64,000 nt of DNA from NCBI RefSeq assembly GCF_000723205.1, contig NZ_HG315671.1, positions 1,151,351 to 1,215,350 of the forward strand. Reading direction: 5' to 3'. This document shows positions 3,230 to 62,189 of the stretch, in pieces. Under the pieces are notes generated by a model, which saw nothing but the letters and a program-made list of their open reading frames with translations, did no database searches and had not been told where the DNA came from. Position 1 is the stretch's first letter, and each line of letters opens with the position of its first letter. A program made the position numbers and the translations under genes. This stretch comes from Formosa agariphila KMM 3901 (GTDB taxonomy: Bacteria; Bacteroidota; Bacteroidia; Flavobacteriales; Flavobacteriaceae).

Positions 3230-3375
3230 TTAACGGATTTGTATTCAATTAAATAATCCTTAATATTCTTCCGAATTAATCTTAAATATTCATAAAAAAG
3301 GTTCGATTTTCAACACATTTATTAAAACTTAAAACATAAAAAAGAATATATTTATAAAAATATAGTTTCCTATTT

Positions 3376-4761: not shown

Positions 4762-4849
4762 TCTATAGTAGTTAGGTGTAATTTATTGTACTTTCTAGAA
4801 GTAAATTATGACACCCTTGGTTGTTTTTGAAAGGTGGCAATTAATCTGT

Positions 4850-17079: not shown

Positions 17080-17080
17080 T

Positions 17081-18840: not shown

Positions 18841-18895
18841 TTTATGAGTTATATGTTGAGATTGTAGGATAGTGTGTAAAATGAAAAATGAGGTT

Positions 18896-19432
18896 ATGAA
18901 AAAGATATTTTTTGTTTTAACTATTCTTGGTATTATTAGTTGTAATAAGATTAATAAAGACGACTTAATCGGTTTAGAGTTTAATGATTTTAAAGCGGTT
19001 AATCCATTAGAAACCTTTACTAAAATTAGCGATACATCTTTTTCTTGCACAACGTCCGAACCAAAATTCAAACTATTTCATCTAAAAGATGGAAAGCAAC
19101 ATTTGGTTGTTTTTGCAGATATTTTAAAGGATTCAGAAAATAATTTCAAGGTGCTAGATATTTTGGAAATTTCAAACCTTACTACACATCAAAAAATTAG
19201 TATAGGTTACTGCGAATTCGATTTAAAACATGAAAATAATGGCAACTTAATAGCTGTAGTAAATATTCAGGATAATGAAGACATCTTTGTTCAAACCATA
19301 AGAAAAGCTTGGGTTGCAAATCCAGAATCTAGAACCATTAATTCCATCAAAGATATTAGCCAGATTAACTGTATTAATGAATGGTATAATGGGAAAAATT
19401 CTAAAATTAACTACAACCTTTTAAAACATTAA
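18896..19432 (+). CDS. Small lipoprotein of unknown function
   Basis: A ~178-residue protein with a clear lipoprotein signal (lipobox GIISC). The mature part is a charged mixed alpha/beta sequence without a motif I recognise. An in-frame ATG at 18872 would add eight residues before the signal, so 18896 is the likelier start. It follows dctM by about 55 bases on the same strand and could share its transcript. I do not recognise the family. Confidence 0.55.
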   Translation: MKKIFFVLTILGIISCNKINKDDLIGLEFNDFKAVNPLETFTKISDTSFSCTTSEPKFKLFHLKDGKQHLVVFADILKDSENNFKVLDILEISNLTTHQKISIGYCEFDLKHENNGNLIAVVNIQDNEDIFVQTIRKAWVANPESRTINSIKDISQINCINEWYNGKNSKINYNLLKH

Positions 19433-38878: not shown

Positions 38879-40696
38879 ATGAAAATTATGAAACGGATAC
38901 CGTTATTTATATTGTTTTTAATAGGATTAAGTAGCACGCATTTTTTCGCGCAATCTTCCAAACGGCCAAACGTTATTTTTGTGATGCCAGACGATATTAG
39001 TCACAGTGCGTTTTCTTATTACAAACCAAACGGACCGCAAACGCCTAATATCGATAATTTTGCAAAAACGTCTATAGTGTTTAGCGATTTTCATGTGTCT
39101 CCAAGTTGCTCACCAACGCGAGCTGCATTACTTACAGGACGTCCAAGCGATGTTGTTGGAGTATGGCACACAATTAACGGAAGAAATATGATGCGCGCCG
39201 ATGAAATTACAATGGCCGATATTTTTAAGAAAAATGGTTATGCTACGGGTTTGTTTTTTAAGTGGCATTTAGGCGATAATTATCCATTTCGTCCAAAAGA
39301 TAGAGGTTTTGAATATGTAGCTTGGATTAAAGGCGGTGGTACAGGGCAGCAACCCGATTATTGGGGCAATACTAATAATCACGCCCATATGTGGGTAAAT
39401 GATTCTTTAGTAGAAATGACCGATGAAGATGATGGTATTGAAGGTGCTTTCACAACCAATTTTTTCATGAATCGTGCTATGGATTTTATGGATGAAAACA
39501 TTAAAAAAGACAAGCCGTTTTTCGCTTACATCCCTTTAGGAACTGCTCATGCTCCACATGTTATGCCTCCAGATGCTCGAGAAGGTGTAAGTGCTAAAAC
39601 AGGAACGATAGAAAATATAGATAAAAATTTTGGTCGATTATTAAAATATTTAGATGATGAAGGAATAGCCGATAATACAATATTAATTTTTACTACAGAT
39701 AATGGTGCCGGAGGATATTTAAGAGGAGGAAAAGGTTCTAATTACGATGGCGGTACGCGAGTACCTTGCTTTATAAGATGGACAGATGGTAATCTTGGTG
39801 GAACAGGAAATGCAAAAGATGTGTCTGCTTTAACGGCGCATATAGATTGGCTACCAACCTTTATGGATATTTTAAACTTAGAAGATGTAGAAAACAGACC
39901 CGAACAACTGAAAATTAGAGGACGTAGTTTTAAACCGTTTTTAGATAACGATACGTCTAACGATCCAGAATCTTATAAAAATCGTGCAGTAACTATTAAC
40001 GATATGTGGACGGAGTTTCCTGAAAAGTATAAAAAATTATCGGTAAAAAAAGACGACTGGAATGGAGATGTTATTACTCATAAATGGCGTTTGGTACGCA
40101 CAGATAGTGTGTCCGATTGGGAACTTTATGATGTGCTTGTAGATGAAAAACAAGAAAAAAATATTATTTCTAACCCAGCCTATAACGATGTTGTTACAGA
40201 GTTAAAACAGGAATACGAAAAATGGTTTCAACTTGTAGACGAACGTTCTAGCGAATACACACGAATAATTTTAGGAAATAAAGCCGAACCTCAATCGGTG
40301 TTACATGCTCACGATTTTCATGGAACTGTAATTTGGGATCAAAGTAATGTAAACAAGGGATCAACTGGAAGCGGATTTATAGCCGTTGAATTTGATAAAA
40401 TAGGAACGTATAATTTCGATTTACGTCGATGGCCTAAAGAAATTGCAGACCAAACGACCTTAACTAATGCAGGACCTGGTAAGGCTCTAAATATTACTCA
40501 AGCACGGATAAAAATTTGGAATAGTGAAGATGTGTTTGTCGATGAAACCAAAGCTGTAACACCAATTGCAGATGGTGTAAATTTTAGTATTCAAGATTTA
40601 CCTAAAGGACCAGCTTTTATTCAAACGTGGTTTTATAATGCCGCTGGTGAAATGGAAGGCGCTGTGTATTATAATTATGTAGAGCATATCAACTAA
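38879..40696 (+). CDS. Secreted sulfatase, S1 family, with C-terminal beta domain
   Basis: A 605-residue sulfatase with a signal peptide ending THFFAQ, NVIFVMPDDISHSAF, the activation motif CSPTR (Cys77), KWHLGDNYPFRP, and metal site TTDNGAGGYLRGGKG. The last ~120 residues form an extra region containing GTYNFDLRRWPKE, which the 56018-57865 sulfatase also has (GTYNFKLRRWPEE), so the two are paralogues. The catalytic part alone is ~470 residues. The extension may recognise the polymer (inference). It leads an operon with the acetylesterase and an alpha/beta hydrolase. Confidence 0.9.
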   Translation: MKIMKRIPLFILFLIGLSSTHFFAQSSKRPNVIFVMPDDISHSAFSYYKPNGPQTPNIDNFAKTSIVFSDFHVSPSCSPTRAALLTGRPSDVVGVWHTINGRNMMRADEITMADIFKKNGYATGLFFKWHLGDNYPFRPKDRGFEYVAWIKGGGTGQQPDYWGNTNNHAHMWVNDSLVEMTDEDDGIEGAFTTNFFMNRAMDFMDENIKKDKPFFAYIPLGTAHAPHVMPPDAREGVSAKTGTIENIDKNFGRLLKYLDDEGIADNTILIFTTDNGAGGYLRGGKGSNYDGGTRVPCFIRWTDGNLGGTGNAKDVSALTAHIDWLPTFMDILNLEDVENRPEQLKIRGRSFKPFLDNDTSNDPESYKNRAVTINDMWTEFPEKYKKLSVKKDDWNGDVITHKWRLVRTDSVSDWELYDVLVDEKQEKNIISNPAYNDVVTELKQEYEKWFQLVDERSSEYTRIILGNKAEPQSVLHAHDFHGTVIWDQSNVNKGSTGSGFIAVEFDKIGTYNFDLRRWPKEIADQTTLTNAGPGKALNITQARIKIWNSEDVFVDETKAVTPIADGVNFSIQDLPKGPAFIQTWFYNAAGEMEGAVYYNYVEHIN

Positions 40697-43578: not shown

Positions 43579-46218
43579 ATGAAAAACCGAATAAGACTTA
43601 AATGTATTGGTATAGCAATACTTATGCTGACCGTTTTTGGATGTCAGTCTGAAAAGTTTAAATATGCCATAGAAAAATCAGCGAATGGTATAACTATTAC
43701 TCAAGATAGTACTCTTATTATTATCGAAGTTATCAATGAATCTATCATTCATGTCAAAAAAAGGATAGCAGGAACAGAAGTCTCAAATCTTCCTGATTAT
43801 GTTACGGTATTAGAACCTCAAAATGTGACTTGGGACATTAAAGAACGTGAAAATTTGTTAACTATTTCTACAGCGGCTCTAAATGTCACTGTAGATGGAG
43901 AAGGTATTATTGCCTATAAAACATTAGACAATAAAAACTTATTATCGGAGACTAAGGAGTTAACATTTATAGGAACAAATCCGGAAGCAGAACATACCGT
44001 ATCTCAAGGATTCATTGCTGGAGATGAAGCGCTATATGGTTTAGGCCAATACCAAAGTGGTATTATGAATTGGAAGAATGTACCAATCAGACTTCAACAA
44101 TATAATCAAGAAATAGCCATTCCGTTTTTACTTTCAACTAAAGGTTACGGAATCTATTGGCACAATTACAGCTTAACAGATTTTAACTTACCACAAAACG
44201 AAATTGAGTTTAAAGAAACGGTTAAAATTTCAACAGATACAGAAGAGCTTGTCGTTCCTGAAGGTGGCGAAAAAGAAAATGTAGCATTGTATGCAGCAAA
44301 AGAGGCTAAAGAGAAAAACATACGTAAAACAACTTTTACACCAACACAAAGCGGTGAATATACCTTTTTAGCACTAAGCGATACCGACGGTCGTATGCGT
44401 GGAAGCATTAGTGTAACCATTGATGGAGATGCCATAATCGATTATTCTACCATTTGGATGCCAAGACGCTATTCTGGAGTTAAACATTTAGAAGCAGGAA
44501 AAACGTACGAGGTGGTATACCAAAATACAGGAGCTAAAATTTTAGGTAATTTATTTTATAATAAACCCGATTATAATAAGACGGTGTTTTCAAGTACATA
44601 TGGAAATGCTATAGATTATTATTTAGTAGCTGGAGAGAATCCAGAGGCTGTAATTTCAGAATATCAAAAGTTAACAGGAACATCGCCACTGTTTGCTAAG
44701 TCTGCATATGGGTTTTGGCAATGTCGTGAGCGTTACCACAATCAAGAGGAATTATTAGCAAATGCTCGTGAAATGCGTGAGCGAAAAATTCCGTTCGATA
44801 ACATTGTACAAGACTGGTTTTATTGGCCAGAAGGGACTAAAGGTCCAGAATGGGATCCTGTCAAATATCCTGATCCAGATGCTATGGTAGATGAGTTAAC
44901 ACGCTTAAACCTAAATTTAATGGTCTCTGTTTGGCCAGAAGTTAAAAATGAACCTTTAGAAAAAAAGTACGGTCTTACAAAAATAGAAAGTAGTAATTAT
45001 GTAGATATTTACGACGAAAAAGTGAGTGAAAACTTCTATCGTGCTTTAAGCGATTCTATGTTTCATAAAGGCGTAAAATCTATTTGGTTGGATGGTACAG
45101 AGCCAGAAGGTGTAAAAAATACTAAAGTAAATACGGCTATCGGGCCATACGAAAGTGTACAAAATCCATATTCACTTTTAGTTACTAAAGCCATGTACGA
45201 AGGACGAAGAAAGGAGTTTCCTAAGGAACGTGTATTTAACCTAACACGTTCTGCTTATGCAGGTCAGCAGCGTTACGGTGCAACGTCTTGGTCTGGAGAT
45301 GTAGAAGCTAGTTGGGAACAATTTGAAGAACAAATAGCAGCGGGATTAAATTTTACTATGGCGGGTGTGCCGTATTGGACACATGATATTGGTGGATTCT
45401 TTAGAGACTCAAATTCAATTAATCCAGAGTTCGATAATCAATATACAAATCCAGAATTTATCGAATTGTTAACACGGTGGTTTCAATTTGGAACCTTTAG
45501 TCCAATTTTCCGTATTCACGGCTATGTGTCGGAAACAGAAATTTGGAGATACGACGATGCGTTCGAAAGTACAGCACGAAAGTTTATCGATTTACGTTAC
45601 CAACTAATGCCATATATCTATTCGCAAGCATGGCAAATTACTACCAACAGTAAACAACTTATGAGTCCGTTGGCATATTTCTATCCTGAAGATAAAAAAA
45701 CATGGGGTATTAAAGATCAATTAATTTTTGGAGAGTCTTTTATGGTTGGTTTTGTTACTGAATATAAGAGCCGAGAAATGAGTATGTATTTCCCTAAAGG
45801 ACAATGGTACAACTATTGGACAAACCAAATTATTGAAGGTGGGAAGGAAGTAACAGTAAAGGCAAATTTAGATGAAACACCACTGTTTGTAAAAGCAGGA
45901 AGTATCATTCCAATCGGACCAAAAGTACAGTATGCAACAGAAAAAACAGATAAACCTTTACGTATAAAAATATATCCAGGAAACGATGCAGAATTTACTT
46001 TGTATTTAGACGATAATGAAACGTACGAGTATGAAAATGGCGGGTATTCAGAATTAAAATTGAGTTATTCTGAAGCAAATAAAACTTTAAGGATTGTTAA
46101 AGGAAATGGCGATTATTTAGATTTCACTAAGACGCCTATGGACTTAAATGTTGAAGTGGTTGGAGGTAAAAAACAGCGAGTAACATTTAAAGGTTCAGAT
46201 TTAGATGTAAAATTTTAA
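43579..46218 (+). CDS. GH31 family alpha-glycosidase with inserted PA14 domain, probable alpha-xylosidase
   Basis: An 879-residue lipoprotein (lipobox VFGC). The order is N-terminal beta-sandwich, then a PA14-type insert at about residues 230-340 (TFTPTQSGEYTFLALSDTDG...), the GH31 barrel, and C-terminal beta domains. Asp505 in IWLDGTEPEG is the expected nucleophile and Asp574 in WSGDVEASW the acid/base. A PA14 insert is known from bacterial GH31 alpha-xylosidases acting on xyloglucan oligosaccharides, so alpha-xylose is the favoured leaving sugar; alpha-glucose or alpha-galactose remain possible. It is monocistronic, with a terminator after it. Confidence 0.9.
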   Translation: MKNRIRLKCIGIAILMLTVFGCQSEKFKYAIEKSANGITITQDSTLIIIEVINESIIHVKKRIAGTEVSNLPDYVTVLEPQNVTWDIKERENLLTISTAALNVTVDGEGIIAYKTLDNKNLLSETKELTFIGTNPEAEHTVSQGFIAGDEALYGLGQYQSGIMNWKNVPIRLQQYNQEIAIPFLLSTKGYGIYWHNYSLTDFNLPQNEIEFKETVKISTDTEELVVPEGGEKENVALYAAKEAKEKNIRKTTFTPTQSGEYTFLALSDTDGRMRGSISVTIDGDAIIDYSTIWMPRRYSGVKHLEAGKTYEVVYQNTGAKILGNLFYNKPDYNKTVFSSTYGNAIDYYLVAGENPEAVISEYQKLTGTSPLFAKSAYGFWQCRERYHNQEELLANAREMRERKIPFDNIVQDWFYWPEGTKGPEWDPVKYPDPDAMVDELTRLNLNLMVSVWPEVKNEPLEKKYGLTKIESSNYVDIYDEKVSENFYRALSDSMFHKGVKSIWLDGTEPEGVKNTKVNTAIGPYESVQNPYSLLVTKAMYEGRRKEFPKERVFNLTRSAYAGQQRYGATSWSGDVEASWEQFEEQIAAGLNFTMAGVPYWTHDIGGFFRDSNSINPEFDNQYTNPEFIELLTRWFQFGTFSPIFRIHGYVSETEIWRYDDAFESTARKFIDLRYQLMPYIYSQAWQITTNSKQLMSPLAYFYPEDKKTWGIKDQLIFGESFMVGFVTEYKSREMSMYFPKGQWYNYWTNQIIEGGKEVTVKANLDETPLFVKAGSIIPIGPKVQYATEKTDKPLRIKIYPGNDAEFTLYLDDNETYEYENGGYSELKLSYSEANKTLRIVKGNGDYLDFTKTPMDLNVEVVGGKKQRVTFKGSDLDVKF

Positions 46219-46404: not shown

Positions 46405-47859
46405 ATGCGCTCACTTGCAATCTATTTAAAACCTATTACTTATAATTGGCTGTCAACTTTTAAAGGGCTACTGTTTCTAGGGATTTTACTACTGTTAAAC
46501 ATACATTCAAATGCTCAAATTCAGGTAAACTCATTAAATGAACTTCGTCCGTATTTAAGTCAGAGTAATGTAAATGTGAAATTAAGTCCTGGGGTATATA
46601 CCATTTCTGCAGAAAGTATTAAAAATGGTGAATTCTCGAAAAATACTCTCGAAAAAAATAATGCAGATGTCATATTCTTTTTTTCTGGAAATAATAGCGT
46701 TTATGATTTTACCGATGTCACTATAAATATAAAAACAGAAGTCTTTACAGCGTTTCCAATAGGAAATAAAGAATTATATGAATTACAAGTGTTAGGAAAT
46801 AAAAACGTATTGAAAAATCTTACGATGGTAGATGTTGGATCTGTAAAAGATGGACCAACTAGACGTGCTACAAATATTGTTATGGATGGTGCAAGCAATA
46901 GAATAGAAGGCTTTCACATCACAACTAAAGGGTCTTACCCGTATGGTTATGGAGAAGTTTTTGGGAAAGGTGGTAAAAGTGTAATTAACCACAGAAAACA
47001 TTCGTCATTTTTAATTCGTGGATATAAAAATCATGCAAAAAACAATACTATAATCCATCGCTCTTATGGGCACGCCATATTTATGCAAGCTGCCGATTGG
47101 CCAATTATAGAAGGCTGTTATGTTGAAGGCGTTATGCGTTCTACAGACGATATGTGGACAGAAAAAGGCACAGGTTCCGATGCCGATAAAGTCAATTTTA
47201 AAACAGTTTTTGGTTACGATTTACCTAAAGGCTACATGTTATGTTTAGGTGAAGAAGGTATTAGGGCGTATAATGGCGGTGAAACTTTTATCGATGGCGT
47301 AGAATATAAAAGAGGAACTTCTAATCCAACAATTATTAATTGTACCATTAAGAATATGAGAGCTGGGGTGACTCTTACCCATGCCACAGGTAAAAAATAT
47401 GTATCTGGGACTACCGCTATTGGTTGTCAACGTGGATTTTGTATTGGTACAGGTGATATTGTAGACTGTTATGCAGACGCACAATATGGACCAGCATTGG
47501 GTGTAGATTATCCGAATGATAGTGGTATGAATGCAGAAATTACCCTACTGCCATACGAAGGGAAATCGTATAATGGAAGCAAACATGCCGCCATAATTAT
47601 TGGAAAAAATCATAATATAACATTGAAAAATGATTTGAAAAATGCTGATCAAGACTTGAAGATTAATTTTGGAGGGGATAACAGAACGATTGGTATGGTT
47701 GAAAAAGATGAAAACTATCCAGCTTCAGGAATTGTATTGAAGAACTTTACAAACTATCCGATTGTTTTAGATGATAACAGTAAAAATAATACGATTGAAA
47801 CAGCAGGAGCTGTAACCGATGATGGTATTGATAACAAGATTTCTAAAATCAAAAAATAA
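46405..47859 (+). CDS. Secreted right-handed beta-helix protein 1, candidate polysaccharide lyase or glycosidase
   Basis: A 484-residue secreted protein with a signal peptide ending NIHSNAQ and short repeating strands typical of a parallel beta-helix. Features shared with the proteins at 49518 and 51248 are PYGYGEVFGKG, KHS (Lys198-His199), RSYGH (Arg219-His223) and MRSTDD (Asp248-Asp249). The Lys and Arg are 21 residues apart, about one helical coil, so they should stack. PL6 lyases use a Lys/Arg pair with that spacing, but the PL6 acidic calcium residues just before the Lys are missing. The DD pair would also suit a GH28-like hydrolase. Activity is therefore unproven. It shares an operon with the DUF1080 protein. 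Confidence 0.7.
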   Translation: MRSLAIYLKPITYNWLSTFKGLLFLGILLLLNIHSNAQIQVNSLNELRPYLSQSNVNVKLSPGVYTISAESIKNGEFSKNTLEKNNADVIFFFSGNNSVYDFTDVTINIKTEVFTAFPIGNKELYELQVLGNKNVLKNLTMVDVGSVKDGPTRRATNIVMDGASNRIEGFHITTKGSYPYGYGEVFGKGGKSVINHRKHSSFLIRGYKNHAKNNTIIHRSYGHAIFMQAADWPIIEGCYVEGVMRSTDDMWTEKGTGSDADKVNFKTVFGYDLPKGYMLCLGEEGIRAYNGGETFIDGVEYKRGTSNPTIINCTIKNMRAGVTLTHATGKKYVSGTTAIGCQRGFCIGTGDIVDCYADAQYGPALGVDYPNDSGMNAEITLLPYEGKSYNGSKHAAIIIGKNHNITLKNDLKNADQDLKINFGGDNRTIGMVEKDENYPASGIVLKNFTNYPIVLDDNSKNNTIETAGAVTDDGIDNKISKIKK

Positions 47860-47897
47860 AAGGAAACCATTTTTAAAAGGGTGGAGCGTTTACTTAA

Positions 47898-49304
47898 ATG
47901 AAAACGTATAATATTAAAAATACACAAATGAAATCTTATATAAACACATTGCTTTTCGTTATAACTCTTGGTTGTACGAGCGTAGTTATATCACAAACAA
48001 AATTAAAGACATTAGACGATTTTCAAGCACCTACCGGCGATTGGTTTCTTGCTAAGGATGTGGCTGTAGATTCTAAAAATCAGCAGGAAATTAAATATAC
48101 CAAAGGTGGTAATGTGTTTGTAAACGGTGTTATAGGTAAAACGAATCATCTGGTGTCTAAAGAATCGTTTGGCGATGTCGAATTACATGTTGAGTTTTTA
48201 ATTCCGAAAGGGTCTAACTCAGGGATATATTTACAAAGCAGATACGAGATTCAGATTTTCGATAGTTACGGGAAAGCAAATGTAGAGTATTCAGACTGTG
48301 GAGCGATTTATCAGCGTTGGGACGAAAGTAAAGCTAAAGGACAAAAAGGATACGAAGGGATGCCACCACGTGTAAATGCAACCTTGCCTCTTGGAGAATG
48401 GCAGAGTTACGACATCATCTTTAGAGCACCGCGATTCGATAAAACTGGTAAGAAAATAAAAAATGCGCTTTTCGAAAAAGTCATTTTAAACGGAATAGTA
48501 ATTCATGAAAATAAGGAAGTCACTGGAGCAACTCGAGAAGGTGTCGAAGGCGAAGAGCTTGCTTTTTCTCCACTTTTATTACAAGGCGACCATGGAAGAG
48601 TTGCGTATAGAAATCTTAGAATTAGAAGCTTAGAAAATACTAGAGAAACGAAGACGAATACCTGGGTAGATCTATTTGTAAATGATAAAGAAACGGGGCC
48701 GAATTACGATTTTGTAGTACATGGAGATGCAACTGTGGAAGAAGCTAATACCATGTTCGAGTATAAAGATAAAGAATTAAAAGCCATGTATAAATGGCAA
48801 GAAAAAGAGGCACCTTATGGGATTGCAGTCACTAAAAAAAGGTACAGTAATTACGACTTAAAGTTCGATTTTAAATGGGGAGAACGCCGTTTTGTTCCGA
48901 GGGCAGATAAAATACGCGATGCCGGTTTATTGTATCATTGTCAGGCTGGGAATTATGCATGGCCACCAAGTTTAGAGTATCAGATTCAGGAAGGCGATTG
49001 TGGCGATTTATGGAATATTTTAGGCTGTCATTGTGAGGTGGTAAAGGACGGTGAGATTACTACCATTGAAAAGCGCGATTATAGCAGTTCTAAAAAGTGG
49101 ACCGATGAAGAAAAAGCAGGATGGAATCAAGTGCTTTTAAAAGTGCGTGGCGATAAAGCAAAGTATTATTTAAATGGTGTTTTGGTAAACGAAATTACCA
49201 ATGCTACCTATGGCGGTTTAACATTAGGGTCCGGATTTATTGCCTTACAAGCAGAATATGCAGAAGTGATTTATAAGCATATTCAGATTAAAGAATTGGA
49301 TTAA
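47898..49304 (+). CDS. Secreted two-domain DUF1080 (3-keto-glycoside hydrolase / LamG-like) protein
   Basis: A 468-residue protein with two DUF1080 domains. The first (~30-250) has FGDVELHVEFLIPKGSNSGIYLQ and YEIQIFDSYG. The second (~255-465) has YSNYDLKFDFKWG, DAGLLYHCQ and LEYQIQEGDCGD. An ATG at 47928 directly precedes the signal peptide and could be the true start. DUF1080 proteins have a concanavalin-like fold, and some cleave 3-keto-glycosides. No oxidoreductase that would make a 3-keto sugar is in the window, so plain carbohydrate binding is also possible. It is co-transcribed with beta-helix protein 1. Confidence 0.8.
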   Translation: MKTYNIKNTQMKSYINTLLFVITLGCTSVVISQTKLKTLDDFQAPTGDWFLAKDVAVDSKNQQEIKYTKGGNVFVNGVIGKTNHLVSKESFGDVELHVEFLIPKGSNSGIYLQSRYEIQIFDSYGKANVEYSDCGAIYQRWDESKAKGQKGYEGMPPRVNATLPLGEWQSYDIIFRAPRFDKTGKKIKNALFEKVILNGIVIHENKEVTGATREGVEGEELAFSPLLLQGDHGRVAYRNLRIRSLENTRETKTNTWVDLFVNDKETGPNYDFVVHGDATVEEANTMFEYKDKELKAMYKWQEKEAPYGIAVTKKRYSNYDLKFDFKWGERRFVPRADKIRDAGLLYHCQAGNYAWPPSLEYQIQEGDCGDLWNILGCHCEVVKDGEITTIEKRDYSSSKKWTDEEKAGWNQVLLKVRGDKAKYYLNGVLVNEITNATYGGLTLGSGFIALQAEYAEVIYKHIQIKELD

Positions 49305-49365
49305 ATCCGATTTTCAGTAGCCTTATTTTTTTTAACGGTAGGCGCTTTAATATTTCAAATACTCC

Positions 49366-49409
49366 AAGTGAAGTTAGAGGTTTTCTAGACCTTTGGCTTC
49401 ACTTTTTTA
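49366..49409 (+). terminator. Terminator after the DUF1080 gene
   Basis: Outer stem AAGTGAAG/CTTCACTT (49366-49373 with 49397-49404), an inner AGGT/ACCT pair, and a T run. Its sequence resembles the terminator at 46250. Confidence 0.75.
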
Positions 49410-49412
49410 GTT

Positions 49413-49478
49413 AGGGCATATAATTTATAGGGATTGCACCATAGTTTATATGTAATTGCTGAGGTTTCAGTATTTTTA
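49413..49478 (+). promoter_or_regulatory. PUL regulon promoter element, copy 6 (beta-helix 2)
   Basis: AGGGCATATAATTTAT at 49413, CATAGTTTATAT at 49440 and -7-like TATTTTTA at 49471-49478. Half-site 2 is shifted by one base, but the total offset of 58 bases is kept. It lies within a TTG-started frame, which shows that frame's first codons are not translated. Confidence 0.7.
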
Positions 49479-49517
49479 GCCTTCGTAAATAAATCTCATA
49501 AACGAAGCAAAACTTAT

Positions 49518-50978
49518 ATGACTACTTTCCGTATTAATTTCAACAGTATTAAAATAAATGCAACCTTTAAAACCTGTGTCATGCTACTTGGTGTTTTTGT
49601 GTTATCAGGACAACATTTAAAAGCACAAACGATGGTGAATTCTTTAGAAGAATTAAAACCCTATTTAGATGATAATAATGTGCAGGTAAAAATGAAACCG
49701 GGTGTGTATACTATTACGGCCGAAGATGTAAAAAACGGACTTTACACTAAAGAAACTGTAATTAAAAACACGAGTAAAGTGTTGTTGCTTTTTGAAGGGA
49801 ATAATAGCACTTACGATTTTACAGGGGTTACTATTAATGTCGACACTAAAGTGTTTCAAGCTTTTGGAAAGTTTCAGGTGTATGAAATTCAAATTATAGG
49901 AAATAAAAATGTGCTTAAAAACTTAACATTAGTCGATGTAGGTTCGGTGCACGACCATCCTGCACATAGAGCAAATAATATTGTAATAGATGGTTCGCAC
50001 AATAGAGTAGAAGGTTTTAATGTTACCACTAAAGGGTCGTTTCCTTATGGGTATGGTGATGCGTTTGGAAAAGGCGGAAAATCGGTTATTCCTCATAAAA
50101 AACACAGTGCGTGTTTAGTACGCGGAGAATCTAACCATTTAAAAGATTCGAAATTTACGCATAGAAGTTATGGGCATTGCATTTTTATGCAAGCAGCAAA
50201 TAACCCTATTATTGAAGGCTGTGTTGTAGAGGGCGAAATGCGTAAAACCGATGATATGCTTAAGGAAACTTCAGGGCCAGCTTTCGACGTCGATTTTATG
50301 ACCGTTTGGGGATATAAACTTCCAAAAGGCTATATGTTAAGTACAGGAGAAGCAGGTATTCGTGCGTACGACGGCGGAGAAACGGTTATCGATGGTAAAA
50401 ATTATAAGCGTGGAACGTCTAACGTAACGGTGTTAAATTGTACGGTTAAGAATATGAGAACAGGTGTAACTATTGCGCACGCTACAGGTAAAAAACGTGT
50501 TGAAGGCTGTGTGGCTATTGGTTGTGAAAACGGATTTTCGTTAGGGTCTGGCGAACTGGTAAATTGTAAAGCAGATGTTGCTTACGGTCCAGCCTACGCA
50601 TCGACTTACGAAAGAGATAAATCGTATAATGCAGATATTACGTTGTTAGACTCTAAAGAACCTTATTATAATGGATCAGGTAACATTGCCTATATTGGAG
50701 GTAGTGAACACAAAATTACATTTCGAGGATCTAGTCAAGGTGCAAATCAAGGATTAAAGATTCAGGTTGGAGGCGATAAAAACAACATCAGGTTATTACA
50801 TGGTAATCTTCCGAATCAGAATGATTTTAAAGGCTTTGATTTTGAAATTCATAATTTAACAACGTATCCTCTAATTTTATCTAATAAAAGTTCTGGAGTA
50901 ACCGGAGAATCGGTTGGAGAAATTAAAGATTCGGGAACTAATAATAAGGTGAAAGCTATAAAAGCCTCAAATAAATAA
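49518..50978 (+). CDS. Secreted right-handed beta-helix protein 2, paralogue of protein 1
   Basis: A 486-residue secreted beta-helix protein with a signal peptide ending HLKAQ. It is colinear with the protein at 46405 (484 residues) and keeps every shared motif: PYGYGDAFGKG, KHS with Lys195, RSYGH with Arg216, MRKTDD with Asp245-Asp246, and GEAGIRAYDGGETVIDG. The Lys-Arg spacing is again 21. The frame is open back to a TTG at 49434, but that lies inside the promoter element. The ATG at 49518 is downstream of the predicted transcript start and gives a normal signal peptide. It is a single-gene transcript, probably a recent tandem duplicate. Confidence 0.7.
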   Translation: MTTFRINFNSIKINATFKTCVMLLGVFVLSGQHLKAQTMVNSLEELKPYLDDNNVQVKMKPGVYTITAEDVKNGLYTKETVIKNTSKVLLLFEGNNSTYDFTGVTINVDTKVFQAFGKFQVYEIQIIGNKNVLKNLTLVDVGSVHDHPAHRANNIVIDGSHNRVEGFNVTTKGSFPYGYGDAFGKGGKSVIPHKKHSACLVRGESNHLKDSKFTHRSYGHCIFMQAANNPIIEGCVVEGEMRKTDDMLKETSGPAFDVDFMTVWGYKLPKGYMLSTGEAGIRAYDGGETVIDGKNYKRGTSNVTVLNCTVKNMRTGVTIAHATGKKRVEGCVAIGCENGFSLGSGELVNCKADVAYGPAYASTYERDKSYNADITLLDSKEPYYNGSGNIAYIGGSEHKITFRGSSQGANQGLKIQVGGDKNNIRLLHGNLPNQNDFKGFDFEIHNLTTYPLILSNKSSGVTGESVGEIKDSGTNNKVKAIKASNK

Positions 50979-51045
50979 GAATAAAATATTAAGACTTTGG
51001 TTAGAAGAAAACAATATTTTTTCAACCAATAAAAATTGAATTTTT

Positions 51046-51075
51046 AGAAGGTCTGTTGTAACAGACCTTCTTTAT
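51046..51075 (+). terminator. Terminator after beta-helix 2
   Basis: Perfect 11-bp stem (51046-51056 with 51061-51071), TGTA loop and T-rich tail. Confidence 0.85.
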
Positions 51076-51101
51076 ATCTAGTTTAATGTATTGCAGATTT
51101 T

Positions 51102-51137
51102 AAGGCTAAATGGAACCCATTTAGCCTTGTTTTTTTT
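51102..51137 (+). terminator. Second terminator just before promoter copy 8
   Basis: Perfect 12-bp stem (51102-51113 with 51117-51128), a three-base loop and a long T run. It insulates the next promoter. Confidence 0.82.
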
Positions 51138-51140
51138 AAA

Positions 51141-51206
51141 TGGGTTTTAAGTTATTGCAAATGATTCATAGTTTATATTCAAATTTCATAAGAGTGATTA
51201 TACTTG
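51141..51206 (+). promoter_or_regulatory. PUL regulon promoter element, copy 8 (best match; beta-helix 3 / GH43 / GH39 operon)
   Basis: TGGGTTTTAAGTTAT at 51141, AATGATTCATAGTTTATAT at 51160-51178 and -7-like TATACTTG at 51199-51206. AGTTAT and AGTTTAT cores are 20 bases apart, about two helical turns, as a direct repeat. No TTG at -33. (Copy 7 is the SusC element at 62658.). Confidence 0.78.
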
Positions 51207-51247
51207 TGTAAGCCTAAAGTAAACGATAATAAAATCAGTAATTAGCC

Positions 51248-52597
51248 ATGAAAAAAGCATCAAGTATAGTTGTCATTTTACTATTCCTTTGTAATAGTTT
51301 AAATGCGACCGAAATTAAGATAAGTAGCTTAAAAGAGTTAGCAAAATATGCTTCAGAAAGCGGACATACTATTACAATGGCACCGGGTGTATATAAGTTA
51401 ACAGATATTTTAACGCCAGAGGTTATTCGAGAACGTAGTGCTCGTAAACAATATCAATATATCAATTTTAGCGGAAGTAATAATATTTTCAATTTAGAAG
51501 GTGTAGAAATCGAGTTAGATACCGAAATCCGAACGCTTTTAAATCCACCAATTCATTCTGATGAATTTATAATAACGGGGTCAAATAATTCCTTTTTTGG
51601 ACTTACTATTAGATGTGTAGGTAAAGGAACATCGCCTGGTGGTACGGTACTTCAAGTTGCAGGAGAAGCAAATATTCTTAAAGAGGTTACTTTACATGTA
51701 GCGGGATCATTTCCGTATGGGTATGGCGATTTGTTTGGAAAAGGAAAGCAAAAGGAAACGACTATAAAGCACAGTAAACATAGTGGATTATTGGTCACAG
51801 GTAACGATACTAAACTGTATAAATGTAAAATATATAACCGTTCGTTTGGGCATTGTTTCTTCATTCAGCAGCATCCAAAGAATGTATATTTTGAAGACTG
51901 CTATGCAGAAGGTGAAATGCGCTCAACAGATGATATTTTAGCTGAAACATCGGGTCCGGCATTCGATGTGAATTTTAAAACGTGGACTCAAAATCGTGAA
52001 GGAGATTATGTTGTTACGCCTGGCTATATGAAATCGCTTTGCGAAGACGGATTTAGAACATATGGCGAATGCGAAAACATAACATTTAAAAACTGTATTG
52101 CTAAAAACACCCGTGGCGGATTTGAGCTTCGTTTTAATAAAGCGCGTCTAGAGAATTGTGAAACCATAGGTACAGAACGTGGGTATTGGGTAGGCGACGA
52201 TTCTGTGGTAGAAAACTGTAAAGGTGATGCAAATTACGGACCTTTGTTATTTGTAGAAGGAAGCCGTATAAAAGTCGATTTAATTGTAGATTCTGCTGCA
52301 TCCGATCGCCTAGTTCACGCATTAGTTACTATTCAGGGTGATGATAATACTATTGTTTTAAAATCGGATAACGGAAAAAAACGTAAAACAGATTTACCTA
52401 TTCTTATTGGGTATACACATCCAGAACATGGGGAAGCAATGTCGCCGTATAGCGAAGCCGAAACTTCAAATTTAAATCTTATTAATGAAACTCATATGCC
52501 TATTAAGATAGGCGTACAGGCTAAAAGTAGCACTATAAAAACCAATGGTGAAATTGTAGAAAACAAAGGGGCTAATATAAAAGTATCCAAACGTTAA
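51248..52597 (+). CDS. Secreted right-handed beta-helix protein 3, diverged paralogue of proteins 1 and 2
   Basis: A 449-residue secreted beta-helix protein (signal peptide ending SLNA). It shares with proteins 1 and 2 the segments PYGYGDLFGKG, KHS (Lys177), RSFGH (Arg198) and MRSTDD, with the Lys-Arg spacing of 21 kept. The rest has diverged, and the GEAGIRAYDGGE segment is replaced by CEDGFRTYGECE. Conservation of these few residues in an otherwise diverged sequence marks them as probable active-site residues. It opens an operon with GH43 and GH39, so its product may be a xylose-bearing uronic oligosaccharide (inference). Confidence 0.7.
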   Translation: MKKASSIVVILLFLCNSLNATEIKISSLKELAKYASESGHTITMAPGVYKLTDILTPEVIRERSARKQYQYINFSGSNNIFNLEGVEIELDTEIRTLLNPPIHSDEFIITGSNNSFFGLTIRCVGKGTSPGGTVLQVAGEANILKEVTLHVAGSFPYGYGDLFGKGKQKETTIKHSKHSGLLVTGNDTKLYKCKIYNRSFGHCFFIQQHPKNVYFEDCYAEGEMRSTDDILAETSGPAFDVNFKTWTQNREGDYVVTPGYMKSLCEDGFRTYGECENITFKNCIAKNTRGGFELRFNKARLENCETIGTERGYWVGDDSVVENCKGDANYGPLLFVEGSRIKVDLIVDSAASDRLVHALVTIQGDDNTIVLKSDNGKKRKTDLPILIGYTHPEHGEAMSPYSEAETSNLNLINETHMPIKIGVQAKSSTIKTNGEIVENKGANIKVSKR

Positions 52598-52618: not shown

Positions 52619-54010
52619 ATGGATAAACCTGTTAAAATGAAAAATAATGTAATACTGTTAATCGCACTTTTATATGTGACATTTGGAGTTTCTCAAAATC
52701 CGATTTTCACTAATGTGTTTACCGCAGATCCTTCACCACATGTGTGGCCAGACGACCCTAACAAACTTTGGGTGTATACCAGTCATGACGAGCCAGGATC
52801 TAATAACCATTACGGAATGACCGGTTATCATGCATTTTCAACCACCGATTTGGTAAACTGGACAGACCATGGTCGCATTTTGCATTTAGAAAATGTAGAC
52901 TGGGCAGAGAGTCATGCTTGGGCTATGGATGCTGCATATTATCGTGGGCAGTATTATTTAGTGTATTGTATGAAAGAAGCTGGAATTGGACTGTTCAGAA
53001 CAGGAATTGCACGTAGCGATAGACCAGAAGGACCATTTACAGATTTAGGCTATGTTAAAGGGGTAGAATTTGGTCAAGATCCGGCCATTTTTATTGACGA
53101 CGATGGGATACCATATTTATATTGGGGACATGATCGCAAATGTTTTGCTGCAGAATTGAATGATGATTTAATGTCTATTAAACCAGAAACTTATGTTGAT
53201 TTAACCTCTCAGTTAACACATGTGTTTGAAGGGCCATGGGTACATAAAAAAAACAATAAATATTATTTAACGTATCCTGGATTAACGCCTAGGCGTTGGC
53301 CAGAAAAAATGTTTTACGCTGTCGCAGAGAACCCTTTAGGACCATATACATTTAAAGGTGTTTTTATAGACGATTTTGAAGGGCAAAGTGGTACCAATCA
53401 TGGCGGAACAGTAACTTACAAAGGCGAAGATATTATGTTTTATCACAGTGCGTGGTTATCTGGTGGTTTAAGTGAAACCCGTTCTTCTATGGCCGATTAC
53501 TTAAAGTATGATAAGGATGGAAATATCTTACCCATTATACCTTCAAAAGAAGGCTTAAGAAAAGCAAAACGCACTAAAGTCACATTGAAATTAGAAGCAG
53601 AACATGGTTTTGCAGCAGGAGGTGCTTTATACAATGTTTTTGTGGATACTTGGATTAAAGGTTACAGTGGTAAAGGGTATGTAACAAATTTCGATAATCC
53701 ATACGATCATGTATCTATTTTGGCTCAGGTGGCTAAACCTGAAAAATACCGTTTTAAAGTGCGATACGCTTCACCAGACGGAGAATCTAACCACGATATA
53801 TTAATAAATAGTCATAAATACAGTGAGTTTATTTTTCCACAATCTAAAGATTTTACGGAAATAGATTTCGGGATTGTAGAATTAAAATCAGGAGACAATT
53901 TGGTGCGTATTTTTAAAAAAGATTGGAAACCTTCTGAAGGTGAACTAGCTATCGATTATATAAAATTTGAACAAGTATTTGAAGACGAATTACAAACTAT
54001 AAAAAACTAA
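52619..54010 (+). CDS. GH43-type glycoside hydrolase with C-terminal CBM6-like domain
   Basis: An inverting exo-hydrolase of the five-bladed propeller fold. The 463-residue secreted protein has Asp37 in FTADPSPHVW (base), Asp104 in WAMDAAYY (pKa-tuning) and Glu204 in FEGPWV (acid), the full GH43 triad. Residues ~320-460 form a CBM6-like beta-sandwich ending with IDYIKFEQ. GH43 enzymes remove beta-xylose, alpha-L-arabinose or related sugars. It lies 21 bases after beta-helix 3 and 13 before GH39. Confidence 0.88.
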   Translation: MDKPVKMKNNVILLIALLYVTFGVSQNPIFTNVFTADPSPHVWPDDPNKLWVYTSHDEPGSNNHYGMTGYHAFSTTDLVNWTDHGRILHLENVDWAESHAWAMDAAYYRGQYYLVYCMKEAGIGLFRTGIARSDRPEGPFTDLGYVKGVEFGQDPAIFIDDDGIPYLYWGHDRKCFAAELNDDLMSIKPETYVDLTSQLTHVFEGPWVHKKNNKYYLTYPGLTPRRWPEKMFYAVAENPLGPYTFKGVFIDDFEGQSGTNHGGTVTYKGEDIMFYHSAWLSGGLSETRSSMADYLKYDKDGNILPIIPSKEGLRKAKRTKVTLKLEAEHGFAAGGALYNVFVDTWIKGYSGKGYVTNFDNPYDHVSILAQVAKPEKYRFKVRYASPDGESNHDILINSHKYSEFIFPQSKDFTEIDFGIVELKSGDNLVRIFKKDWKPSEGELAIDYIKFEQVFEDELQTIKN

Positions 54011-54023
54011 AATTAAAAACGTT

Positions 54024-55661
54024 ATGAAAAAAGTATTAATAACTGGCCTATTGGCATTAATGGCCCATATTGGTTTCTCGCAAGAGCAAGTCCGTGTTAA
54101 GGCTACTGCTAGTGGCGAAAAATTCGAACATTTTTGGAGCAAGAGTGTTGGTGCTGGACGTGCTAACGAAGGGTTACGTGCCGGTTGGTTAGAGCAATTA
54201 GAGCTTGTTCAAGAGAATTGCGGCTTTGAATTTGTGAGATTTCATGGCATATTTCACGACGATATGTTTCCTGTATTTGAGAAAGACGGAGTTTACACAT
54301 ATAACTGGCAATATATCGACGATTTATTTGATAGAATGCTCGATTTAAATGTAAAGCCATTTGTAGAATTAGCATATTTTCCAACGCCATTAGCTGCCGA
54401 AAATAGTAAAACTCAATTTTGGTGGAAAGCAAATATTACTCCAGATGAATCTAAGTTTGGAGAGTGGCACAATCTAGTAAAAGCGTTTACAAAACATTGT
54501 GTAGATCGTTATGGAATTGATGAGGTATTAACGTGGTATTTTGAAGTATGGAATGAACCAAATTTACATTACGGATTTTTTGATGGAACAAAATCTCAAT
54601 ACTTCGAGTTATATAAGCAATCTGTAAACGCGGTAAGATCTGTAGACAACCGTTTAAAAGTGGGTGGACCTTCAAGTAGTAACTTTGTTGCCGATGGCCG
54701 TTACGATGGTGAGGTAGAAAGTAGAGATGGAGATCTTATTACATTCACCGCAGATAATATTAATGAATTAGAATGGAAAGGTGTATGGATAGAAGACTTC
54801 TTAGCGTATTGCAAAAAAGAAAAGCTTCCTGTAGATTTTGTATCAACACATCCATACCCAACAGATTACCCATTTAATCCAACAACAGGAAAAGGTAAAG
54901 ATTTTTCACGAAATGTAAATTCAACCAAAACCGATATGGAGTGGTTAAATAAAGTGATTAAAAAAAGTGCATATCCTAATGCCGAAATTCACTTAACCGA
55001 ATGGAATACAAGTCCGAATAGTAGAGATGCTATGCACGATTTTTTACCACCAGCAGCATACGTTGCTAAAGTAAACCTAGATTGTATTGGTTTAGCTAAT
55101 TCTTTAGCATTTTGGACGTTTACAGATATTTTTGAAGAAAAAGGAGGCGCAGAGAGTATTTTTCATGGTGGTTTTGGAATGATTAATTACCAAGGTTTGG
55201 TTAAACCTACGTATCATGCATACCGTATGTTACACCAGTTAGGAGATCAAGAACTTTATAAAAACGATTATCTGTTTGTAAGTAAAAAATCTGGTGACGG
55301 TAAAGTTGTGGCGTTAGCTTATAACTATCCAGAAGATCATTATAAAGCGGTACCAGCTAGTATCAGAAAAATAGACCAATATGAAAACGGAAAAAGCCGT
55401 CAGTTAGATTTTACAATTTCAGATTTAAAACCAGGCGCCATGTTTAAGGTTGAAGTTTTAGATGCCGAAAGTGGTAATATCTATAAGTATTGGGAAACTA
55501 TGGGTAAACCTGAACCACCAACAAGAGAACAAATTAAGGTGATGAAGAATTATGCAGAAAACTTAAAAACAGAATTATTTACTGCAGATGCTAAAGGTAT
55601 TGTTAGTATTAAACGTGAATTAACACCTTGGAGTTTAGTATTGATAGAACAAGTAAACTAA
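54024..55661 (+). CDS. GH39 family beta-xylosidase-like glycosidase
   Basis: A retaining exo-glycosidase, 545 residues, secreted (signal peptide ending HIGFSQ). The barrel contains FVRFHGIFHDDM, WYFEVWNEPNLHYGF with Glu178 as acid/base, and EIHLTEWNTSP with Glu326 as nucleophile. GH39 members are mainly beta-xylosidases, with some alpha-iduronidases. Both are relevant because xylose or iduronate can occur in sulfated algal glycans. It is the last gene of the beta-helix 3 operon and is followed by a terminator. Confidence 0.92.
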   Translation: MKKVLITGLLALMAHIGFSQEQVRVKATASGEKFEHFWSKSVGAGRANEGLRAGWLEQLELVQENCGFEFVRFHGIFHDDMFPVFEKDGVYTYNWQYIDDLFDRMLDLNVKPFVELAYFPTPLAAENSKTQFWWKANITPDESKFGEWHNLVKAFTKHCVDRYGIDEVLTWYFEVWNEPNLHYGFFDGTKSQYFELYKQSVNAVRSVDNRLKVGGPSSSNFVADGRYDGEVESRDGDLITFTADNINELEWKGVWIEDFLAYCKKEKLPVDFVSTHPYPTDYPFNPTTGKGKDFSRNVNSTKTDMEWLNKVIKKSAYPNAEIHLTEWNTSPNSRDAMHDFLPPAAYVAKVNLDCIGLANSLAFWTFTDIFEEKGGAESIFHGGFGMINYQGLVKPTYHAYRMLHQLGDQELYKNDYLFVSKKSGDGKVVALAYNYPEDHYKAVPASIRKIDQYENGKSRQLDFTISDLKPGAMFKVEVLDAESGNIYKYWETMGKPEPPTREQIKVMKNYAENLKTELFTADAKGIVSIKRELTPWSLVLIEQVN

Positions 55662-55938: not shown

Positions 55939-56017
55939 TATGAGGACTTTATTAAAGTCACTGAAAAGTATAATTCATTTAAAATATCTAATAAAAGTGT
56001 TTAAAATTACAAATCAA

Positions 56018-57865
56018 ATGAAATCATATTCTTATATCCTGAGTGTGTTATGTATGGCACTATCAATAGTGTCTTGTAAAACCGAAGAAAAGAAGAGTCT
56101 CGCAGAAGAAGAAACTAAGAGCAATAAACCCAATGTCATTTTAATTTTAGTAGACGATCAAGGATATGGAGATATTGCTGCGTTAGGAAACACTATTATT
56201 AAAACTCCAAATATAGATGCCTTGCATGCTTCAAGTGCACGATTTACAGATTATCATGTAAATCCAACATGTGCGCCTACACGAGCGGCTTTATTAACGG
56301 GTCATAATGCCAATAGAGCAGGAGTATGGCATACGGTAAATGGTCGTTCCATACTTTTAGAACGCGAAACTACTGTTGCTCAAATTATGAAAGACAATGG
56401 GTATGCAACAGGAATTTTTGGAAAATGGCACTTAGGAGATAATTACCCTGCACGACCACAAGACAAAGGGTTCGAAGAAGTGTTAATCCACGGTGGTGGA
56501 GGTATTGAGCAAACTATGGATTTTTGGGATAACGACTATTATGCAGATACGTATCATAATAATGGGAAATTAGAAAAGTTTGAAGGCTTTTGTACAGATA
56601 TTTGGTTCGATGAAGCCATGAAGTTTATGGAAACAAAGAAAGAAAGTAACACACCATTCTTTGTGTATTTACCTACTAATGCTGCACATACACCATACTT
56701 TGTTGATGATAAATATTCGGCACCGTATAAGAATAACGAAAATGTGCCGAATGCAGATTTTTACGGACTTATTGCAAATGTAGATGAGAATATAGGAAAG
56801 CTTGTAAACTATTTAGAAACCACAAATCAAATAGATAACACCATTTTAATTTTTACGACAGACAACGGAACGTCTGCAGGCGCTCAAATTCCTAAAACAG
56901 ACGATCGTTTAGACGGATTTGTTACTAAAGGTTTTAATGACGGTATGCGTGGTATTAAAGCAAGTAAATACGAAGGTGGACACCGTGTTCCTCTTTTTAT
57001 TCATTGGAAAAATGGAGGGATTACTGTAGGTAAAGATATAGATGCGTTAACAGCTCATTACGATGTGGTACCTACATTAGTGGATCTTTGTGATTTAGAA
57101 ATTAAAGACGATATTAAATTTGACGGACAAAGTTTAAGACCATTAATAGAACAAGGAGATGACTCGCGTTTTAAAGACCGTATTGTAATTACCAATTCGC
57201 AACGTATAGATGTGCCAGAAGCTTGGAGAAGAACCTCTTTAATGCAAGGCAAATGGCGATTAGTAGATGGTACAGAATTATATGACTTAAATACAGATCC
57301 AGAACAACGTACCAATATTGCCGATAAGCACCCTAAAAAAATGGACGATTTTAAAACCGCTTACAACCTTTGGTGGGAAGATTTATTACCTGGCTATAGC
57401 GATTTACCACGTATTCATTTAGGACATGAAAAGGAAAACCCTGTTAAAATTTATTGTCACGATTGGCATACAGAAGGGGTTAGTCCGTGGCACCAAAGAC
57501 ATATACGTTCAGGGTATATCGATAACGGGTATTGGTTAGTTGAGGTTGAAGAAAAAGGAACTTACAATTTTAAATTACGTCGTTGGCCAGAAGAAACGCA
57601 ATTAGCTTTAAATGCTCCAGCTCCTATTCGTCCTGCACTCGAAGGGACTAGTGTGCGTGCATCTAAACTTGGAAAAGTATTAAATATTGAAAAAGCAAGA
57701 ATTAAAATTCAAGATATAGACGAAACTATAGCTGTAGATGCTAATCAGGAATATGTAGAGTTTACACTCGATTTAGAACCTGGTGAAACCAATCTTCAAA
57801 CCTGGTTTACTTTAGATAATAAAGAGGAATTAGGAGCGTATTACGTGTCTGTAGAAAAAATATAA
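56018..57865 (+). CDS. Sulfatase lipoprotein, S1 family, with C-terminal beta domain
   Basis: A 615-residue sulfatase lipoprotein (lipobox SIVSC) with NVILILVDDQGYGDIA, the activation motif CAPTR (Cys85), KWHLGDNYPARP, and metal site TTDNGTSAG. The C-terminal extension contains GTYNFKLRRWPEE, shared with the sulfatase at 38879. An upstream ATG at 55940 is in frame but abuts the predicted -7 element, so it would not be in the mRNA. The ATG at 56018 begins a normal lipoprotein signal. It is first in an operon with beta-helix proteins 4 and 5. Confidence 0.9.
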   Translation: MKSYSYILSVLCMALSIVSCKTEEKKSLAEEETKSNKPNVILILVDDQGYGDIAALGNTIIKTPNIDALHASSARFTDYHVNPTCAPTRAALLTGHNANRAGVWHTVNGRSILLERETTVAQIMKDNGYATGIFGKWHLGDNYPARPQDKGFEEVLIHGGGGIEQTMDFWDNDYYADTYHNNGKLEKFEGFCTDIWFDEAMKFMETKKESNTPFFVYLPTNAAHTPYFVDDKYSAPYKNNENVPNADFYGLIANVDENIGKLVNYLETTNQIDNTILIFTTDNGTSAGAQIPKTDDRLDGFVTKGFNDGMRGIKASKYEGGHRVPLFIHWKNGGITVGKDIDALTAHYDVVPTLVDLCDLEIKDDIKFDGQSLRPLIEQGDDSRFKDRIVITNSQRIDVPEAWRRTSLMQGKWRLVDGTELYDLNTDPEQRTNIADKHPKKMDDFKTAYNLWWEDLLPGYSDLPRIHLGHEKENPVKIYCHDWHTEGVSPWHQRHIRSGYIDNGYWLVEVEEKGTYNFKLRRWPEETQLALNAPAPIRPALEGTSVRASKLGKVLNIEKARIKIQDIDETIAVDANQEYVEFTLDLEPGETNLQTWFTLDNKEELGAYYVSVEKI

Positions 57866-60959: not shown

Positions 60960-62189
60960 ATGAAATTAATTAAAGGCACATTAGTAGCATTAACTTGCGC
61001 TGCTATGTTAATGGGATGCGAATCTAAGAAGAAGGAAACGTCTTCTATAGATGTAAAAGACGCTGAGGTGAGTAAAAACCTCGTATTAGATTTGAGTGTA
61101 GATAAAGTAAAAAATACTTTAGGGACATTAAAAGAAGCAGATAGTTTTCCGAGAAATATAACCAAAGGGCAAAAAGATTGGAACCTTGTTGGTGTTAGAG
61201 ATTGGTGTTCTGGATTCTGGCCAGGTGTACTTTGGTACGCTTACGAACTATCAGACGATCCAGAAATTAAAGCTGGAGCTGAAAAGTTTACAGCACCTTT
61301 AAAAGAGATTGCATATACACCTGCAGATAATCATGATGTTGGTTTTATGGTGTACTGTAGCTATGGAAATGGGTACAGATTGACCGGGAACGAAGAGTAT
61401 AAAACGGTAATGCTTGCAGCAGCAGATACTCTAGCAACCTTATACAACCCTAAAGTAGGAACTATTTTATCTTGGCCTGTTATGGTTGATAAGATTGGTT
61501 ACAACACCATTATCGATAACATGATGAATTTAGAATTGTTGTTTTGGGCCGCTAAAAATGGTGGCGACAAGAGTCTTTATGATATCGCCGATAGTCATGC
61601 ACAAAAATCTATGGAGCATTTAGTTCGTCCAGATTATTCTATTTATCATGTTGCACTTTTCGATGAAAAAACAGGTGAATTCACTAAAGGAATTACGCAC
61701 CAAGGGTATGCAGATGAATCGATGTGGGCTAGAGGTCAAGGCTGGGGAATATATGGCTTTGCTTTATCATACAGAGAAACAGGAAAAGAAGAGTATTTAG
61801 ATACATCTATTAAATTAGCAGATCACTTTATAGAGCGTTTACCAGAAGATGGTGTGCCATACTGGGATTTCGATGATCCAAAAATACCAAATGCACCTAA
61901 AGATGCTTCAGCTGCATCACTAGTAGCATGCGGGATGTTAGAATTAGCCGACCAAGTAAAGGATAATGCGCTTAAAGTAAAGTATACTCAAGCAGCAAAA
62001 GACTTAATGGCAAAATTAGAGTCTAAAGCGTATTTTAGTGGAGATACTAACCAAGCCCTATTATTACACTCTACAGGACATTTACCTCACAATTCAGAAA
62101 TTGATGTTCCAATAATATATGCAGATTATTACTTTATGGAAGCTTTAGTAAGATTAAAAAAGCTTGAAGATAAAATAGCAATGCAATAA
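60960..62189 (+). CDS. GH88 unsaturated glucuronyl hydrolase, second copy (lipoprotein)
   Basis: A 409-residue lipoprotein (lipobox LMGC) closely similar along its length to the GH88 at 23977. RDWCSGFWPG, HDVGFMVYCSYG (Asp126) and IIDNMMNLELLFWAAKNGG (Asp186) hold the two essential aspartates. Differences cluster in the loop after the first helix hairpin and near LSWPVMVDKIGYN, which could change subsite preference. It has its own promoter element and terminator. Two GH88 copies under the same control suggest two different unsaturated oligosaccharides, or different linkages or sulfation (inference). Confidence 0.92.
   Translation: MKLIKGTLVALTCAAMLMGCESKKKETSSIDVKDAEVSKNLVLDLSVDKVKNTLGTLKEADSFPRNITKGQKDWNLVGVRDWCSGFWPGVLWYAYELSDDPEIKAGAEKFTAPLKEIAYTPADNHDVGFMVYCSYGNGYRLTGNEEYKTVMLAAADTLATLYNPKVGTILSWPVMVDKIGYNTIIDNMMNLELLFWAAKNGGDKSLYDIADSHAQKSMEHLVRPDYSIYHVALFDEKTGEFTKGITHQGYADESMWARGQGWGIYGFALSYRETGKEEYLDTSIKLADHFIERLPEDGVPYWDFDDPKIPNAPKDASAASLVACGMLELADQVKDNALKVKYTQAAKDLMAKLESKAYFSGDTNQALLLHSTGHLPHNSEIDVPIIYADYYFMEALVRLKKLEDKIAMQ

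Follow-up and report, generated by a model that had tools for sequence, protein, structure and literature searches.

We analysed a stretch of 64,000 nucleotides from the genome of Formosa agariphila KMM 3901 (contig NZ_HG315671.1, positions 1,151,351 to 1,215,350 of the forward strand; hereafter the window), in which three genes, A, B and C, encode homologues of FdlA, a lyase of sulfated fucoglucuronomannan (SFGM)/fucoidan from Flavobacterium sp. SA-0082 (Wang et al. 2022, PMC9410043). The scan began at position 10415 and took in the ORFs of at least 150 aa, leaving aside 17081-17545 and 18872-19432; 55940-57865 was searched against NCBIfam only. The three genes and the main features around them are as follows:

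14159..15727, forward strand: sulfatase
19703..23851, forward strand: hybrid two-component sensor/regulator
23977..25188, forward strand: GH88-type protein, predicted as the likely remover of unsaturated uronates
26096..28501, forward strand: GH3
29717..31084, forward strand: sulfatase
32355..34952, forward strand: GH95-type protein
38879..40696, forward strand: sulfatase
43579..46218, forward strand: GH31
46405..47859, forward strand: FdlA-family protein A, 484 aa, intact ORF
47898..49304, forward strand: protein with a 3-keto-disaccharide hydrolase domain (PF06439), between A and B
49518..50978, forward strand: FdlA-family protein B, 486 aa from ATG, intact; a TTG reading starts at 49434
51248..52597, forward strand: FdlA-family protein C, 449 aa, of a separate clade, intact ORF
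52619..54010, forward strand: GH43 with CBM35
54024..55661, forward strand: GH39
55940..57865, forward strand: sulfatase, NCBIfam matches below the curated cut-offs
60960..62189, forward strand: GH88-type protein
62936..64000, forward strand: SusC-type TonB-dependent transporter, cut off by the end of the window

Esterases are also found among the window genes, and downstream of the window follow a SusD, a second SusC/SusD pair (L133), a GH97, two more sulfatases, a GH29-type fucosidase and a GH3. GH95 is a fucosidase family, and, judged by the activities that we associate with these families, the locus would fit a sulfated polymer of fucose, xylose-like sugars and glucuronate. An earlier note on this DNA, made from its letters, had counted two GH88 enzymes and no classical lyase that it recognised; both GH88-type genes are there, and no named lyase family was matched in Pfam among the ORFs scanned from 10415 on.

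Several other genes in or beside the locus deserve mention. Two further beta-helix proteins (57881-59014 and 59099-60490) showed only PF12708 ('pectate lyase-like') and similar general domains and no match to the FdlA-family profile; they are weakly similar to alginate C5-epimerases (E 2.3e-8 and 0.0017), and homologues of each occur in 5 of 76 loci with FdlA-family genes (family loci) and in 0 of 20 PL6 loci. A 1159-aa ORF adjoining a sulfatase (10415-13894) had no Pfam match at E 0.001, and TRAP-type transporter genes (DctP, DctM; 16099-18840) beside the locus would fit the uptake of acids such as uronates. Downstream, in L135, lie a 683-aa protein (12-2063) similar to Uly1040 (PDB 9VTK, E 4.7e-25), with no Pfam match at 1e-5, and a protein with beta-helix and PDZ domains (2958-5327) that resembles PDB 9RX2 and BT_1002.

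The reading frames and shared blocks that the earlier note had described in A, B and C are as it gave them: KHS, RS(Y/F)GH and MR(S/K)TDD are present in all three, and a Lys and an Arg (198/219 in A, 195/216 in B and 177/198 in C) stand 21 residues apart in each, a distance of about one coil of a beta-helix. Protein C has an extra KHS at 174, upstream of the aligned Lys at 177. A and B are 54% identical, and each shares 31% with C; because the three are paralogues, the equal spacing is inherited and does not represent three independent coincidences. All three begin with segments resembling signal peptides (judged by eye), and a Pfam scan of A, B and C found no Por secretion tail, suggesting that they may be periplasmic and that a Por-tailed paralogue of the same genome may act outside.

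In searches of the PDB, the only strong matches of A, B and C were to FdlA (E 3.9e-147, 2.8e-159 and 1.3e-41, respectively), which is represented there by nine sequences (7XZ7-7XZF), and the matches span the whole catalytic domain; no other PDB sequence reached better than E 0.09 in the family-profile searches. Neither Pfam nor NCBIfam returned a specific family for the three. The general Pfam domain Beta_helix was found above cut-off in C and below it in A and B, and was matched by 48 of 74 family rows (E up to 0.001). These matches support A, B and C as homologues of FdlA, which is a polysaccharide lyase with a beta-helix fold and belongs to none of the classical families.

The structure of FdlA is a right-handed beta-helix with a basic groove-pocket, elimination by the enzyme is independent of metal ions, and its product is the unsaturated trisaccharide Delta4,5-GlcA-beta-1,2-(Fuc3S)-Man; the activity of FdlA-NTD was followed at 232 nm, and mass spectrometry served to identify the product (PMC9410043). 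Eight single mutants of seven residues (D137A, K141A, H176A, F179A, E236A, R240A, Y242A and Y242F) were nearly inactive, R272A was still active, and E236 bonds R272; from structures, mutants and docking, Y242 was proposed as the acid and K141 as the base (PMC9410043). Residue numbers here are those of that paper, obtained by subtracting 17 from the PDB chain number; the offset agrees with each of the 11 residues mutated there. The seven mutant-sensitive residues are all retained in B and C and six of them in A, where the position of D137 is Glu. The equivalents in A are E184 (FdlA D137), K188 (K141), K198 (K151), R219 (R172), H223 (H176), E283 (E236), R287 (R240), Y289 (Y242) and R319 (R272), and the counterpart of K151 is K195 in B and K177 in C.

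The earlier note had seen in the three proteins a candidate new family of beta-helix polysaccharide lyases. Homology to FdlA bears out the idea in kind, but the family was already in print, with structures and mutants, in 2022, when FdlA was described as belonging to no CAZy family and as representing a potentially novel PL family (PMC9410043). A match to a characterised non-lyase family, which the earlier note had named as evidence against its proposal, came true by half: a characterised family was matched, but its characterised member FdlA is a lyase. Literature searches on the CAZy class PL43 brought up nothing on this family, and our searches showed no assayed members besides FdlA and FdlB.

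We aligned 136 distinct rows from the window, its own genome and the 76 loci together with FdlA, 137 in total; from 147 profile matches, four partial or secondary ones had been dropped and window copies and identical rows removed. The Lys of the earlier note corresponds to FdlA K151 and its Arg to R172. K151 belongs to a set of six charged or Tyr side chains that show no variation, the others being H176, E236, R240, Y242 and R272 (each 137/137), whereas the Arg, also taken as conserved, is kept in only 101 of the 137 rows. Position 141 is Lys in 114 rows, Leu in 13 and Ile in 10, and D137 is kept as Asp in 94. On a quick maximum-likelihood tree, K141 changed three times, D137 nine times, R172 19 times and the six invariant residues not at all. 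The patterns used to find the loci include FdlA positions 174-181 and 194-201, so that conservation there, H176 included, is partly selected; K151, E236, R240, Y242 and R272 lie outside them. The Lys/Arg spacing is 21 in 119 rows, 23 in 14 and 26 in four, and two clades have neither K141 nor D137. A profile search of relatives found 21 further rows, 20 of them distinct (one protein occurs twice), with the same six residues invariant, K141 in 11 of the 20 and Leu or Ile in nine; since they carry the same K141-less motifs, they are new sequences but not an independent family.

Judged from conservation, K151 might be the family-wide lysine, acting as base or neutraliser, with K141 confined to some clades. 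We give this less than an even chance, since R272 is equally invariant and yet R272A is active, which speaks directly against taking invariance as a sign of catalysis; invariance is no proof of such a role, and that of K151 may be a structural one. K141 is clearly of importance in FdlA, because K141A kills the enzyme. Neither K151 (Lys151) nor Arg172 (R172A) occurs in the main text of PMC9410043. More broadly, K151 and not K141 could be the catalytic lysine throughout the family, and the clades in tandem arrays, some of them without K141 and D137, could catalyse the same reaction on other uronic glycans of algae by means of a different substrate-binding loop; this combined proposal we hold tentatively, as slightly more apt to fail than to stand.

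A, B and C fall into separate supported sets (SH-aLRT 98 with 9 rows, 99 with 3 and 99 with 8), with further clades beside them. A further alignment held 74 of 76 chosen representatives, two long-branch rows having been omitted. At least two family ORFs lie within about 6 kb in 39 of the 76 loci, some of which overlap, and a locus of Mariniflexile fucanivorans (L078) holds five, each in a different clade. The records of these loci are mostly from Bacteroidota, with some from Verrucomicrobiota and Kiritimatiellota. The family is present in 7 of 59 genomes around and including that of F. agariphila, in at least 2 of 395 genomes order-wide and in at least 1 of 395 class-wide (own genome included), and these counts are lower bounds, at most four candidates having been scored per genome. 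The own genome holds seven family genes. Besides A, B and C there is a gene some 42 kb beyond the end of the window, whose product carries leucine-rich repeats and a Por secretion tail, and a second locus (about 2.125-2.137 Mb; L132 5111-16939) contributes three more. Of these three, one is fused to a GDSL esterase and one is without K141; they are accompanied by a hybrid regulator, an oxidoreductase, a sodium:solute symporter and a GH88-type gene, the last about 0.2 kb away from one of the family genes. Nine of the ten ORFs there that reach 200 aa were scanned, and no sulfatase was found in them.

Each of the seven family-positive genomes among the 59 searched, the own one included, has GH88-type genes no more than 25 kb from a family gene. 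Of the 37 GH88-type matches in these genomes, weak ones below the Pfam cut-off included, 8 fall within 10 kb of a family gene (0.5 expected) and 11 within 25 kb (0.98 expected). The expected counts assume uniform placement, a lenient null given the clustering of such genes. Around 18 PL6 matches of the same genomes, taken as a control (one PL6 match below cut-off was left out), the corresponding counts were 0/37 and 1/37. Within 6 kb, a GH88-type gene was found at 3 (profile) or 4 (tblastn) of the 76 family loci versus 0 of 20 PL6 loci, and sulfatase homologues at 42/76 versus 2/20; the 76 include several loci that overlap or stand on one contig, and all 20 PL6 controls were taken from the own genome and its relatives. 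Together with the product of FdlA, the positions of the GH88-type genes favour elimination.

The earlier note had likened the Lys/Arg pair to the catalytic pair of PL6, stacked in one cleft. The pair of chondroitinase B has the same 21-residue spacing, and a Lys and the Arg of an Arg-His-Gly also stand 21 apart in four PL6 genes of the same genome. The analogy draws on coil spacing and found no support when the FdlA family, less three long-branch rows, was compared by hhalign with 19 PL6 rows: the best match covers the N-terminal part only (probability 51%, E 1.5e-4), the other registers are weak, and none aligns K151 with the PL6 catalytic Lys, which is position 241 of the fragment used. The register of FdlA 148-173 on PL6 141-166 puts K151 on an earlier stretch with another Lys, and the best register in the catalytic region (probability about 10%) places the PL6 pair at about FdlA 160 and Q181. 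On repeats this is a weak test, and we take its outcome as absence of support for a PL6 register, not as proof. PL6-like catalysis is also opposed by the metal independence of FdlA (PMC9410043), by an Arg that changed 19 times on the tree and by spacings of 23 or 26 in 18 of the 137 rows. None of the three matched the PL6 profile PF14592 (E up to 1), whose four matches in the genome all lie away from them. The PL6 genes have acidic residues seven and five positions ahead of the Lys. These are absent from A, B and C, as the earlier note had observed, and no acid is among the five commonest residues at FdlA positions 144 and 146 in the 137 rows. Overall, we consider catalysis of the PL6 type very improbable. 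The other reading considered in the earlier note, a hydrolase resembling GH28 that would rely on the two Asp of MRSTDD, appears scarcely credible: GH28 enzymes have the beta-helix fold predicted for the three and DD occurs in all three window proteins, but the pair is not invariant (D201 in 117/137 and D202 in 85/137), no GH28 profile matched at E up to 1, and A, B and C are homologous to FdlA.

Two other explanations concern the bond that is cut and the polymer that carries it. FdlA and FdlB were reported to degrade three fucoidans, and a fourth weakly, without absorbance at 232 nm, and cleavage of fucosyl bonds was proposed (Cao 2018, PMC6267234), which suggests that A, B and C might be endo-fucoidan hydrolases cutting alpha-1,4 fucosyl bonds and not lyases. 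The fucoidans described in that paper are not known to hold mannose-glucuronate backbones. We regard this as improbable, in view of the unsaturated trisaccharide that FdlA-NTD gave in mass spectrometry and the 232-nm assay (PMC9410043), of the GH88-type genes near family genes and of the lack of an invariant acidic pair in the family, E236, the one invariant acid mutated in FdlA, being bonded to R272. It is somewhat easier to imagine, though still unlikely, that C or the K141-less clades do not act as lyases on SFGM-type substrates and are instead C5-epimerases of uronates or lyases with a different polymer as substrate. This would agree with the low identity of C (31%), with the absence of K141 and D137 from two clades, and with the K141-less member of the second locus, which clusters with a GH88-type gene and has no sulfatase in the nine of ten ORFs scanned there; against it, no family row has lost H176, E236, R240, Y242, R272 or K151, and both K141 and D137 are present in C.

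We therefore prefer to regard A, B and C as FdlA-family right-handed beta-helix lyases that probably perform metal-independent beta-elimination on a sulfated algal polysaccharide containing glucuronate, as part of a large utilisation locus of the fucoidan type. The view builds on the homology, the active-site residues that are kept and the genes nearby, from which the fold, activity and substrate of the three and the order of the pathway are predicted. A, B and C would cut SFGM or a near relative, with the equivalent of Tyr242 protonating the leaving oxygen and those of Arg240 and His176 neutralising the carboxylate, as proposed for FdlA; the GH88-type enzymes would then take off the unsaturated uronate, and sulfatases and glycosidases would finish the oligosaccharide. 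The substrate of C may be a different one, given its 31% identity to FdlA. Fucoidan-type glycans degrade slowly and add to long-term carbon storage (PMC12786026). In this context, the three paralogues of the locus, each from a clade of its own, are candidate enzymes with other specificities, and the invariant K151, untouched by the mutant study, offers a direct test of the mechanism. The result is an ordinary but useful one: a known enzyme family that has been little studied gains new members, and the identity of its working lysine comes into doubt in a way that can be tested.

Compared with known systems, A, B and C share with FdlA and FdlB the homologous catalytic domain and the mutant-sensitive residues, with D137 replaced by Glu in A. 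They differ from FdlA in that its F5/8 and Por secretion domains, described in PMC9410043, were not found in A-C by Pfam, and C differs further by its low identity and its separate clade. With PL6 (chondroitinase B/alginate lyase) they have in common the predicted beta-helix class and a Lys and an Arg 21 residues apart, but there was no profile match and no shared register was found, and FdlA is metal-independent and the Arg of its family not conserved. The likeness to GH28 lies in the predicted beta-helix fold, the difference in the missing profile match and an Asp pair that varies within the family.
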